NCBI GenBank assembly: GCA_021846565.1
Contig: JAJZWS010000014.1
Location: 1 to 56,211, forward strand
DNA length: 56,211 nt
Direction: 5' to 3'
Source of the DNA: Bacillota bacterium
GTDB taxonomy: Bacteria > Bacillota > Sulfobacillia > Sulfobacillales > JAIMBI01
A program made the position numbers and the translations under genes. The notes beneath the pieces are model-generated. The model saw nothing but the letters and a program-made list of their open reading frames with translations, was not told the origin of the DNA and ran no database searches. Below, one piece after another: positions 26,347 to 30,359 of this stretch; the stretch's first letter is position 1; the number at the start of each line of letters is the position of its first letter.

Positions 26347-26409
26347 ATGGGCGAGATCTGTCAAGACCACGCCATGCACCTCGCGCCTGAGCGGCACGGG
26401 TCGTCGTGA
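26347..26409 (+). CDS. 20-residue leader peptide upstream of pseudo-nitrilase
   Basis: A short frame, too small for usual gene calling, with a strong ribosome-binding site (GGGAGGTG, seven bases before the ATG). It starts MGEICQDHAM and ends APERHGSS; Cys5, His8, His11 and His17 could bind metal. Its TGA overlaps the GTG of the next gene (GTGA), so translation of the two is coupled. That arrangement, plus the ribosome-binding site, is the evidence; no homologue is known to me. It may be a regulatory leader or a true small protein. Confidence 0.55.
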   Translation: MGEICQDHAMHLAPERHGSS

Positions 26410-27074
26410 CCCGGCTGGATACCCTGTCCTACTGGCGTGGCGACCACCTGCCCGGCACCTGGGGACCGGCGAGCGACCTCATCGTGCTTGACCTGGCGCA
26501 TATGCCCGCCCGCCCTCAGATGGCGCGCTGGGCGGATGGGTCCCAGGTTCCTACGCTCGTGGCCGCGCGTCAGCCCGATGGCGGCAGCCGGCGCGCAGAC
26601 CTGTACGACGGCCGGGGGCGCCTGGTGGCCTCCCAGAGCCAGACACACCGCGCGCCGGGGGATGAGGAGCCGTCTTGGGTGGCCGACACGGTCCAGGTCT
26701 TTGACCTAGCCGGACATTGCCTGGGCATCCTGCTGGGAGACGATGTCCTGGTTCCCGAGGTGAGCCGCACCCTCACCCTGATGGGCGCCGAGTTGCTCAT
26801 TGCCGTGGCGGCGCCCCGCCTGCCGAATTATCTGGGCATCTGGCGGGAGTCCCAGCAGAACCAGGTGATCGGGTTCGGCGGGGGTGCGCCCCCGACCCTC
26901 ACGGTACCCTGCGAGGCGGACCCCGGCGAGAATGGATTTTTAGCCATGGAATCTTTGGGGGACTGGGTGCGTGCCACATTGCCCTGGGGTTCACTGGCCC
27001 CGGTGCGCGAAGCCTTCCTGTTGCACCAGCTGAATCCTCGTGCGTATCTGGACCGGCGGTGGTGGTCGCCGTGA
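26406..27074 (+). CDS. Nitrilase-fold pseudoenzyme (triad lost)
   Basis: A 222-residue protein aligning by eye with the carbon-nitrogen hydrolase fold, but with all three catalytic residues changed. The Glu strand reads ASDLIVLDLAHM (normally ...LIVFPE), giving Asp29-Leu30. The Lys strand reads GRLVASQSQTHRA with Gln79 where RKTHL has Lys. The Cys strand reads GILLGDDVLVPEVSRTLTL with Gly111 where ICYD has Cys. The following LMGAELLIAVAAP and IWRESQQNQV match the family. It is shorter than usual. The start GTG overlaps the leader peptide and its stop overlaps the active nitrilase (GTGA), suggesting a partner or regulator of the latter. A non-enzymatic role is inference. Confidence 0.72.
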   Translation: MTRLDTLSYWRGDHLPGTWGPASDLIVLDLAHMPARPQMARWADGSQVPTLVAARQPDGGSRRADLYDGRGRLVASQSQTHRAPGDEEPSWVADTVQVFDLAGHCLGILLGDDVLVPEVSRTLTLMGAELLIAVAAPRLPNYLGIWRESQQNQVIGFGGGAPPTLTVPCEADPGENGFLAMESLGDWVRATLPWGSLAPVREAFLLHQLNPRAYLDRRWWSP

Positions 27075-28165
27075 GATGGGAACTGTCCGTCGGACGAACC
27101 TACCTGGCTTGGCGTGTAGCCAGGGAACGGCGCCGCGTCCAGGTTCTGCAGCGACGCGGGGGGCCGGTCGCCTGGCGCCGCGATGCCTTGGTGGTGGCGG
27201 CCGTCCAATGGGATATGCGCCCCATCGCCAGTGTGGCCGATTGGACGGCGCGGCTGGTGCTGCAGTGCGACCAGGCTACGCGGGCTGGGGCGGCCCTCCT
27301 CGTGTTTCCCGAATATATCGGGTTGTCGTTGATGGGCCTGTTGTCGGAACACCGGGCCCTCCGGAACGCTTCCCCCCAGCAGCTGACGCCAGCAGAAGTG
27401 GGGGCCCGCCTGAAAGCCTGGGCCCCCACTGTCGTGCCCCTTTACCGGACCGTGTTCTCGCGCCTGGCGGCGGCCTACGGCGTCACGGTGGTCGCGGGCT
27501 CGACGCTGGTGGAGCACGGCGATCGCATGGAAAACCTCGCGCACGTATTTGGCCCGGACGGGCGCCTCCTGGCGACGCAACCCAAGCTGCACCTCCTGGC
27601 GACGGAAGCGTCCTGGGGAGTGGTGCCGGGCACGCGCCTCGCGCCGATCTCGGGTCCGATCCCCGTCCAGCCTGTGGTATGCTACGATGCCAGCTTCTTT
27701 GAAACCTATCGGATGGCCCGCACACATGGCGCCGAACTGATAGCGGTCCCGATAGCGGATCCGGACCCCGATTACGGTGAGGCCAAGGCGCGGCGCGGGG
27801 CATGGGCGCGCACCCAGGAATCCGGACTAGTGTCGGTCGTAGGGGCCGGCACGGGAGAGCTTTACGGTACGCTCTTCACGGGCAAGGCGGCGGTGTATGC
27901 CCCCATGGCCGAAACCGCCGCGGGCGATGGCGTACTGGCGGAAAGCCCCCACCCCGATGGAGAAGGGGTGGTCGTCGCGACAGTCAACTTGGACCGCCTG
28001 CAGGAGTACCGCCAGCACCTGCCCGCCCCGCGGGCCGACCGCGTGGCGGCCTGGCTGGCTCCCCGGTACGAGGCGCTTGCGCCCTGGGTCGGGCCCGATA
28101 CGGTGGGCGAGCGTGAGGCGCTCCGGCAGGTGGCCGCGGTCGGACCCTCCCTGCGGGATCCCTAG
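27071..28165 (+). CDS. Carbon-nitrogen hydrolase (nitrilase superfamily)
   Basis: A 364-residue nitrilase-superfamily enzyme with an intact triad: Glu81 in LLVFPEYIG, Lys172 in ATQPKLHLL and Cys204 in VVCYDASFFE. The family hydrolyses nitriles or amides, or transfers acyl groups through a thioester; the exact substrate is unknown. About 40 residues precede the domain, which begins at LVVAAVQWD. GTG 27071 is used because it overlaps the previous stop by four bases; GTG 27059 is an alternative. Directly coupled to the triad-less paralogue and followed by a DedA gene 31 bases on. Confidence 0.88.
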   Translation: MRWELSVGRTYLAWRVARERRRVQVLQRRGGPVAWRRDALVVAAVQWDMRPIASVADWTARLVLQCDQATRAGAALLVFPEYIGLSLMGLLSEHRALRNASPQQLTPAEVGARLKAWAPTVVPLYRTVFSRLAAAYGVTVVAGSTLVEHGDRMENLAHVFGPDGRLLATQPKLHLLATEASWGVVPGTRLAPISGPIPVQPVVCYDASFFETYRMARTHGAELIAVPIADPDPDYGEAKARRGAWARTQESGLVSVVGAGTGELYGTLFTGKAAVYAPMAETAAGDGVLAESPHPDGEGVVVATVNLDRLQEYRQHLPAPRADRVAAWLAPRYEALAPWVGPDTVGEREALRQVAAVGPSLRDP

Positions 28166-28196
28166 ACCCATACCGAAGCCACGAAAGGTAGATGTC

Positions 28197-28775
28197 ATGC
28201 ACACGTTGACCGTATTGGCCGAAGGGTTTCTGGCTCTGGGCCTCTGGGGCGTTTTTGTTGGCATGGCGCTCGAGAGCGCCGCGATTCCCATTCCCAGCGA
28301 GGTGCTGTTGCCGTTTGCCGGCTACCTCGTGGCCGTGGGCCGCGCTACCTGGTGGGAGGCGGGCCTGGTAGCCATTTTGGGCGGCACCATTGGGGCGGTC
28401 GTGTCGTACGGCGTGGCGTACTGGGTCGGGAAAACCTGGGGCAGCCGCTCTCACGGCCTTGACCGGGCGCAGCGGTGGTTTGACCACTACGGAGAGGCGG
28501 CCGTGTTTTTCGGCCGTCTGGTGCCCGGCGTCCGTACCTATATTTCGCTGCCGGCCGGCCTGGCGCGCATGCGGTTTGCCCGGTTTCTCGGCTACAGCGT
28601 ACTGGGGGCGCTGCCGTGGACGGTCGTGTTCATCTACCTGGGCGTCAAGTTTGGGGCCAACTGGCACAATGCGCTGCACGATCAGGTGTGGGTGTACGTC
28701 GTCGGGGTCATCGTGGTAGTGGCGTGGGTCGTGTGGTTCTTGAACCGACGCCGGGGACGCGGCGAGATTGCCTGA
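28197..28775 (+). CDS. DedA-family membrane protein
   Basis: A 192-residue integral membrane protein. The DedA/SNARE-associated signature is clear: ESAAIPIPSEVLLPFAGYL near the N-terminus, and FFGRLVPGVRTYISLPAGLARM in the middle, with the re-entrant loops and Arg residues of the family. Hydrophobic helices follow at WTVVFIYLGVKFG and VYVVGVIVVVAWVVWFL. DedA proteins are half-transporters implicated in lipid carrier (undecaprenyl phosphate) and phosphatidylethanolamine flipping. ATG 28197 follows GAAAGGTAG. It belongs to the peptide-nitrilase operon by spacing. Confidence 0.9.
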   Translation: MHTLTVLAEGFLALGLWGVFVGMALESAAIPIPSEVLLPFAGYLVAVGRATWWEAGLVAILGGTIGAVVSYGVAYWVGKTWGSRSHGLDRAQRWFDHYGEAAVFFGRLVPGVRTYISLPAGLARMRFARFLGYSVLGALPWTVVFIYLGVKFGANWHNALHDQVWVYVVGVIVVVAWVVWFLNRRRGRGEIA

Positions 28776-28814
28776 GTGCCCCGGATGGCCGAACCTCGGC
28801 CGAGGGAGGTGGAC

Positions 28815-30359
28815 ATGGACCTGACGCGAGAGGACATGTCCCGCGAATTGGATCAGCTGGTAACGCTCCTCATCGAGAGCCACCCCGATCCCTATCGGGC
28901 GGTGGGCGGACCGGTGTCCTTCCATCGGGCGGCCGCGGCCATCCGGGCGGGGTTGCCGGAATCCTGCGCACCGCGAGAATGGCTCGCCCGCCTCCGACCG
29001 TTTGTCGCTCTGCTGCAGGACGGCCACACGACGATCGAGGGGGAGGAACCCGCATCCGATGCTGGCGAGTGCCTGCCGTTGGCCTTTGGCGTACTGCCCG
29101 AGGGCCTGTACGTTACCGGCGTGGGTCCGGATGTCGACTCGGCCTGGCTGGGCGCGCGGCTGGAGGCCGTGGCCCGCTGGTCCGCGGCCGAACTGTACCA
29201 GCGCACACGCACCCTGCTGGGCTGCGACAACCACCTCGATGTCTGGCGGCGCTTGGCCTTGGCGACACGGCAACCCACACTGTGGCAGGCCATCACCGAT
29301 GCGGCGCCGGGGGCACCCGCCCCGCTGACCCTGACCCTCACCGATGGCACGCGCGCGACCGGGCTGCTAGCGTGGACGCGTCACCCGCGGTCGACGCTCC
29401 GGCAGGCACCCGGCATCGGCGGGCGGCCGAAGCGGGGACCTACGCACGTGGGGTGGCACCTCGTCGGCGACGGCCGCGTGGCGTGCCTCACCATGGGCTC
29501 CCTGATGCACTATCGGGAGGCGGGCGAGGTTTGGTGGGCCACGGGCTACCACGAACCGCTGTGGCAGCGCGCACGTGCCTTGGGCTCGGGTGGTCCGCTC
29601 ACCCCGGAGGCCCTCATGGCGGTCGTGTCGGACATGCCCTCGGCCACCGCAGTCCTGCACGAGCTGTGGACCGCCATGCAGGCGTCTCGCACGGAGTCTC
29701 TCGTGGTCGACCTCACGGCGGCACCCGGCGGCAACTCGGTGTTGAGCGGTCTGCTGGCATTCGCCGCGTACGGGCTCGACGCTTTGGTCCGGTCCGACGG
29801 CGGGTATCAGATTCCGCGCTATTCGCCGCTGTACCGAGCAAACTACGGAAGCGTGCCGACGGCGGTGCCGGGGAGCGGGGGCTATGACTTTGGGCAGGAA
29901 GCGGCTTGGCGCACGGCGCAGGACGACCCCGCACGGCGGGCGGCCCTCGGTCATGCGGACTGGAGTGCACTCCTCCAGCAGGTTCCCACTTTCGCGAGTG
30001 CGGTGGACACGTGGCCGACGTGGCACCCACGGGTGGTGGTCGTGACATCGGCCTTCACGTACAGCGCTGGATTCGACCTGGCCCTGCGGCTGCGCCAGTT
30101 GGGCGCGCAGCACGTGGGGGTGGCCAGCGCTCAAGCGCCCAACTGCTTCATCGATGTACTGCGCTACCGGCTGGACCGGTCGGGGTTTACCGGTACCATC
30201 TCGTTCAAAGAGAGCTGGGCCATCCCCGACGCCGGCTGGGGATCGCGCACGCTGGAGCCGGATGTCTCGCTCACCTACGACGACGTCGTGCGATTTGGCG
30301 GGGACGCGGCGGCGGAGCTTCGGCTGGCGCTTGAGCTGGTACAAACCGGCGCCCTCTGA
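28815..30359 (+). CDS. S41-type (tail-specific protease-like) peptidase-family protein
   Basis: A 514-residue protein without a clear signal sequence. LLQDGHTTIEGEE near residue 80 is the conserved DGHT motif of the S41 family. Near residue 410, VVVVTSAFTYSAGFDLAL matches the strand and helix holding the nucleophilic Ser (TYSAG). The Lys of C-terminal processing proteases is not evident, as in tricorn-type or other non-CTP S41 proteins, and no PDZ domain is obvious. The ATG has GGGAGGTGG upstream; 39 bases separate it from dedA. It ends three bases before the convergent glycosidase gene. Peptidase activity is inferred. Confidence 0.72.
   Translation: MDLTREDMSRELDQLVTLLIESHPDPYRAVGGPVSFHRAAAAIRAGLPESCAPREWLARLRPFVALLQDGHTTIEGEEPASDAGECLPLAFGVLPEGLYVTGVGPDVDSAWLGARLEAVARWSAAELYQRTRTLLGCDNHLDVWRRLALATRQPTLWQAITDAAPGAPAPLTLTLTDGTRATGLLAWTRHPRSTLRQAPGIGGRPKRGPTHVGWHLVGDGRVACLTMGSLMHYREAGEVWWATGYHEPLWQRARALGSGGPLTPEALMAVVSDMPSATAVLHELWTAMQASRTESLVVDLTAAPGGNSVLSGLLAFAAYGLDALVRSDGGYQIPRYSPLYRANYGSVPTAVPGSGGYDFGQEAAWRTAQDDPARRAALGHADWSALLQQVPTFASAVDTWPTWHPRVVVVTSAFTYSAGFDLALRLRQLGAQHVGVASAQAPNCFIDVLRYRLDRSGFTGTISFKESWAIPDAGWGSRTLEPDVSLTYDDVVRFGGDAAAELRLALELVQTGAL

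Follow-up and report, generated by a model that had tools for sequence, protein, structure and literature searches.

A triad-less nitrilase homologue encoded together with a triad-bearing nitrilase in many lineages of Bacillota: a probable two-subunit enzyme

Introduction

Enzymes of the nitrilase superfamily are described as dimers of like subunits whose dimer surface affects activity (PMC4700190, PMC4981594), and every known functional member has an underlying dimer (PMC4700190). This dimer (A) surface is formed by helices alpha5 and alpha6; mutations at the surface lead to loss of activity, and a role of the surface in holding the catalytic cysteine in place has also been suggested (PMC4981594). 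The nearest described arrangement to the one analyzed here is that of the heteromeric NIT4 nitrilases (NIT4A/NIT4B) of grasses (PMC5154151, PMC6214922), in which a working enzyme is made of two different nitrilase-superfamily subunits and the choice of partner affects activity or specificity. The grass proteins are true nitrilases of plants, which form helical filaments and go back to a duplication within grasses. A literature search covering few subscription journals found no published bacterial nitrilase with an inactive or triad-less partner, only these plant heteromers.

A further point of comparison is NitFhit (PDB 1ems), in which a nitrilase-superfamily enzyme and a second protein form one polypeptide in some lineages but are separate proteins in others. 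Fhit, however, is an unrelated nucleotide hydrolase rather than an inactive nitrilase. The Nit/omega-amidase-type and archaeal amidases are, to our knowledge, homo-oligomers with the triad in every subunit.

Here we describe a pair of adjacent genes, termed A and B, that is known from genes and models and resembles the NIT4 case in that two different nitrilase-superfamily proteins are predicted to form a working enzyme. The pair differs from NIT4 in being bacterial, in being encoded by an overlapping operon or as a fusion, in occurring in many Bacillota lineages, and in that one of the predicted subunits lacks the whole triad; a profile search of the PDB revealed no specific sequence tie of A-B to NIT4 beyond the superfamily. 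The pair and its natural fusions suggest a two-subunit enzyme of a kind not described before, with a dead copy that would serve as a permanent partner.

Organization of the Locus

The window, i.e., the whole stretch of DNA analyzed (56,211 nucleotides), is one contig of a 3.4-Mb genome, the closest public relatives of which are Bacillota metagenome-assembled genomes (MAGs) and the order of which also takes in Sulfobacillus. The pair lies in a set of five codirectional frames, with ppx, mutS, mutL, and miaA upstream and a GH18 gene downstream, all on the opposite strand. The features of the set are as follows:

26348..26409, + strand: leader ORF, 20 aa, with ribosome-binding site GGGAGGTG; GTGA overlap between its stop and the start of A
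26406..27074, + strand: gene A, triad-less nitrilase-fold protein, 222 aa, recognized by homology, fold model, and dN/dS
26754..26780, + strand: helix of A with P117-E118..R121, after the lost Cys position; invariant in the A family and equivalent to alpha5 of the dimer (A) surface (PMC4981594)
26838..26864, + strand: helix of A carrying W146-..-Q150-..-Q153 (WRESQQNQ), without variation across the A family; counterpart of alpha6 in the dimer (A) surface (PMC4981594)
27071..28165, + strand: gene B, nitrilase-superfamily hydrolase, 364 aa, with triad E81-K172-C204 and second Glu E179; its GTG start overlaps the stop of A
28197..28775, + strand: dedA, DedA/VTT-domain membrane protein, 192 aa, with a VTT match; 31 bases after B
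28815..30359, + strand: S41-like gene, 514 aa, Pfam match of 23.3 bits against a cut-off of 24; 39 bases after dedA; accessory

By homology and dN/dS, A, B, DedA, and the S41-like protein are products of real genes. The original prediction, made from the window alone, described five codirectional frames joined by two GTGA overlaps and by gaps of 31 and 39 bases, all of which are real; its start coordinate of 26347 was one base too early. Its description of A as a triad-less nitrilase homologue was likewise correct: A has none of the three residues, and B has all of them.

Gene B Encodes a Putative Amidase

Over its full length, B matches the CN_hydrolase family of Pfam (PF00795) with 55.5 bits, above the cut-off of 23.2 bits. 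To compare the two proteins across lineages, we used a joint alignment of 109 A-B pairs from many Bacillota lineages, about nine of which are second copies of a genome taken from another collection, leaving about 100 distinct pairs. In this alignment, the residues equivalent to Glu81, Lys172, and Cys204 of the window protein are present in 107, 109, and 106 of the 109 B sequences, respectively, and the second glutamate (Glu179) in all 109. The closest PDB profile matches of B are Nit/omega-amidase-like and archaeal amidases, with NIT4 matches ranking lower; these amidases, among them mouse Nit2 (2w1v), a Pyrococcus nitrilase (3ivz), and a Pyrococcus amidase (6ypa), provide the best profile and fold matches of both B and A, and have the triad as in B. 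We propose that B is a small-molecule C-N hydrolase of the amidase-like kind. An identity as apolipoprotein N-acyltransferase (Lnt) was rejected, with a TIGR00546 score of 15.7 bits against a cut-off of 132.9 bits.

B differs from the Nit/omega-amidase-type and archaeal amidases in its obligate partner gene and in about 40 additional residues at its N-terminus. The N-terminal stretch (27071-27190 in the window; also inspected in L097, L111, and L128) is very basic and amphipathic, like DGWKERLFRRYLFWACRPARVRK, and is retained in the linker of the L128 fusion (see below). The stretch might provide a contact with a membrane or within an oligomer. In three lineages (L157, L158, and L161), the catalytic cysteine of B is replaced by Gly, Ser, and Thr, respectively, with an additional change of Glu to Asp in L161; the adjacency of A and B is retained in all three, where the pair may persist without catalysis.

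Gene A Has Lost the Triad and Is Under Purifying Selection

A scores 22.5 bits against the same Pfam family, just under the cut-off of 23.2 bits. An AlphaFold model of the window A alone (pLDDT 89, pTM 0.86) folds as a shortened nitrilase, and its best Foldseek match is mouse nitrilase-2 (2w1v; E 8.9e-12, probability 1.00). None of the triad residues Glu, Lys, and Cys is found in any of the 109 A sequences of the joint alignment (0/109 each). At the lost sites A has a conserved pattern of its own, with Q-TH where B has its Lys and VGxDAxxPE where B has its Cys. Within the genus, dN/dS is 0.10-0.12 for A and 0.13 for B, so that purifying selection on A is as strong as on B. This similarity, together with the residue pattern and the old pairing with B, argues that A is not a decaying pseudogene.

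The alignment and the AlphaFold model place the invariant residues P117, E118, and R121, and W146, Q150, and Q153, in two helices behind the lost cysteine. The length of A is about 170-222 aa in Sulfobacillales compared with ~290 aa outside the order, and divergence inside the order is fast. The A proteins of this order retain the dimer-surface helices but have an eroded N-terminal half and Q-TH motif.

These observations bear on an alternative role for A, that of a regulator or ligand sensor which binds B transiently, its altered pocket (Q-TH, VGxDAxxPE) sensing a metabolite and switching B. Pseudoenzymes are often allosteric, and the conserved pattern at the former triad sites exceeds what a pure scaffold would need. 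The erosion of the N-terminal half and of Q-TH in Sulfobacillales, with the dimer-surface helices kept, argues against this role, and the fusions and strict 1:1 coupling described below better suit a permanent subunit. We therefore regard a sensor function of this type as unlikely.

The A-B Pair Is Widespread and Appears to Be Ancient

At the first 32 loci collected (the window and 31 relatives), A lies immediately upstream of B in 32/32, with a 4-base stop/start overlap in 25. We then surveyed 154 genomes of the class, calling B at E <= 1e-60 and A at E <= 1e-30. B was found in 69 genomes and A in 70; all 69 genomes with B also have A, so that no B without A occurs among the 154, and a single A stands without B. 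A is directly upstream of B on the same strand in 66 of the 69 genomes, and in the remaining three the genes are on different contigs. Among the 80 best loci from a scan of 84,980 named species, A adjoins B at 78 (two as fusions); at the remaining two, a contig end interrupts the locus. The taxa bearing the pair include Sulfobacillus thermotolerans Kr1, S. harzensis, a Thermaerobacter-labelled MAG, Syntrophomonadaceae and Halanaerobiales MAGs, Thermosediminibacter litoriperuensis, Thermovorax subterraneus, and Acididesulfobacillus acetoxydans.

In a phylogenetic tree, A and B form two separate clades (support 0.98 and 0.92) apart from the other nitrilases of the genome. Taken together, the survey, the joint alignment, and the tree indicate that the pair is ancient and that A has been dead since before many Bacillota lineages diverged.

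The extent of the overlap between A and B varies by lineage, being 4, 1, 8, or 14 bases (L042, L044; L064, L065; L086, L096, L097, L111, L154). In many Clostridia, the two genes are in the same frame with one stop codon between them, i.e., one step from fusion.

Natural Fusions and a Model of One of Them

In five genomes from two families, A and B form one uninterrupted ORF, with linkers of different lengths:

L148, L149, and L150: single-ORF A-B fusions of one genus
L128 (= L151): single-ORF A-B fusion of a Symbiobacterium-labelled MAG
L131 (= L152): single-ORF A-B fusion

The L150 fusion (616 aa) was modelled with AlphaFold using an alignment of 14 paired rows, which consisted of natural fusions and of same-frame A-B pairs read through the single stop. 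The model is confident (pLDDT 87, pTM 0.89) in spite of a disordered linker at residues 274-294, and its two halves are packed together; for units that move freely, one would expect a far lower pTM. Because AlphaFold has learned nitrilase homodimers, we take the packed model as a sign of compatibility rather than as proof. The full-length fusions could have another interface than the pair of Sulfobacillales, in which A is short and diverges fast.

A Proposed Two-Subunit Enzyme

On this evidence, we consider it probable that A and B together make up a single enzyme, with B as the catalytic subunit and A as an obligate non-catalytic one that pairs with it across the dimer surface. B would act through the Glu-Lys-Cys thioester mechanism, and A would pair with it via alpha5/alpha6, standing in for one of the two B chains that an ordinary homodimer would have. 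Replacement of one B by A is the simplest reading, because the dimer-surface helices contain the residues that are invariant in A and the known members of the superfamily are built on dimers. As the dimer surface of known nitrilases is suggested to have a part in positioning the catalytic cysteine, A would be expected to stabilize or shape the active site of B, while its own altered pocket may serve in binding or regulation. Translational coupling, mostly through 4-base stop/start overlaps, or fusion would hold A and B at 1:1. We infer from the genes and the fusion model that A and B associate as separate chains, that this interface is used, and that the association affects activity. The earlier suggestion of an inactive and an active nitrilase-fold protein forming a probable heteromer is thus strongly supported by adjacency, triad loss, selection on A, the fusions, and the packed fusion model.

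If the proposal is true, the natural pair offers a direct test of what the second subunit contributes, and the natural fusions are ready single-chain versions of the enzyme. The 'nitrilase' genes of pair-bearing genomes would then best be annotated and expressed as pairs, and in substrate screens B may show no activity by itself.

Genomic Context of the Pair

The pair is present in 22 Sulfobacillales genomes. All 22 have dedA behind B, and in 15 of them A is preceded by a gene for a D-Ala-D-Ala carboxypeptidase (Peptidase_S11, 161 bits), which mostly overlaps A or ends a few bases from it. In the genus of the window, the carboxypeptidase gene is gone from the operon, with the 20-aa ORF in its place, and each genome has four other S11 genes. 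Upstream of the pair, two Sulfobacillus genomes have a gene for a small HTH-type regulator instead of the carboxypeptidase gene (L043:5047-5565 and L045:5918-6436, B-oriented coordinates). The DedA protein matches VTT with 86.1 bits, over the cut-off, and has this domain in common with the DedA/UptA undecaprenyl-phosphate transporters; UptA is its best NCBIfam match, scoring 121.5 bits against a cut-off of 250. Selection on dedA is reflected in a dN/dS of 0.02-0.09.

The neighbours are different elsewhere. At the 78 loci outside Sulfobacillales, neither dedA nor the D-Ala-D-Ala carboxypeptidase gene is found beside the pair (0/78); a GH125-like gene is present at 35 and a GPH-type sugar transporter gene at 30, with at least one of the two at 47. 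The GH125-like neighbour matches Glyco_hydro_125 with 81 bits. Three examples are given here in B-oriented coordinates:

L111, 5069-7003, - strand: GH125-like gene
L127, 3349-5181, + strand: GH125-like gene
L088, 6963-9071, + strand: GH125-like gene

The GH125-like protein, of ~600-700 aa, is longer than the solved alpha-mannosidases, with the match mainly C-terminal, and its gene often stands beside the pair together with that of the GPH-type transporter. No GH125 gene was found in the window genome, and the wider context has therefore not simply moved elsewhere in it.

According to the original prediction, the five genes could constitute an envelope-associated pathway. In one form of this reading, a precursor of the cell wall or a lipid-linked compound would be the substrate of the pair, DedA would recycle the lipid carrier, and the S41-like protein would be a peptidase. 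The constant dedA and frequent carboxypeptidase gene of Sulfobacillales, and UptA as the best NCBIfam match of DedA, fit such a pathway as a local context within the order. In other Bacillota, the absence of both genes beside the pair and the 47 loci with a GH125-like or sugar transporter gene speak against it, and the S41-like gene does not occur at this position in the congener G001 or outside the genus; a single five-gene pathway is thus quite improbable. A general envelope role as the common function of the pair was likewise rejected, given the different neighbours outside Sulfobacillales. What extends far beyond one strain is A-B-DedA, with dedA in 22/22 Sulfobacillales, whereas the five genes do not hold together as a unit, the S41-like gene (in 3/4 congeners) and the 20-aa ORF being confined to part of one genus.

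Since the gene neighbours differ between lineages, no single pathway can be named for the pair; the common activity would be an amidase-type reaction that different lineages have put to different settings. The same contrast bears on whether A and B are neighbours through inheritance only, an old tandem duplication having left A with an unrelated binding job and co-transcription keeping the genes adjacent. A and B are indeed homologous, sister-like clades, and tandem duplicates often stay adjacent; but the pair stays intact while the surrounding genes change entirely between lineages, no B occurs without A in the class, and fusions exist, all of which makes mere inheritance highly unlikely. For the two-subunit enzyme proposed above, we see an about even chance that it represents a whole class of heteromeric enzymes of the nitrilase superfamily, widespread in bacteria, in which a dedicated, anciently inactivated subunit controls or completes the active one. 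Such a class would be reused across pathways, in an envelope operon in Sulfobacillales and in glycoside uptake and cleavage elsewhere, with a few lineages keeping the pair though both partners lack the catalytic cysteine.

Accessory Genes

The frame of the leader ORF is intact in 3/4 congeners and absent from the fourth. Its dN/dS of about 0.8, calculated over 20 codons only, gives no visible amino-acid constraint, and a functional leader peptide was rejected. The leader is probably a translational-coupling ORF; coupling of A to it is plausible because the leader has a strong ribosome-binding site and A has no obvious one near its start.

The S41-like gene was rejected as a core member on the basis of its distribution, being found at this place in 3/4 congeners of the window genome; a 40% identical copy is present elsewhere in G008. 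The match of its product to the Peptidase S41 domain is partial and misses the cut-off (23.3 of 24 bits), and no convincing PDB match was obtained. The protein has a conserved TYSAG serine in common with that of G008, with no partner lysine assignable. The dN/dS of the gene is 0.23-0.39. Its dS to G002 is 0.135, compared with 0.33-0.43 for the neighbouring genes, which hints at a recent exchange of the S41-like gene between the window and G002 lineages.
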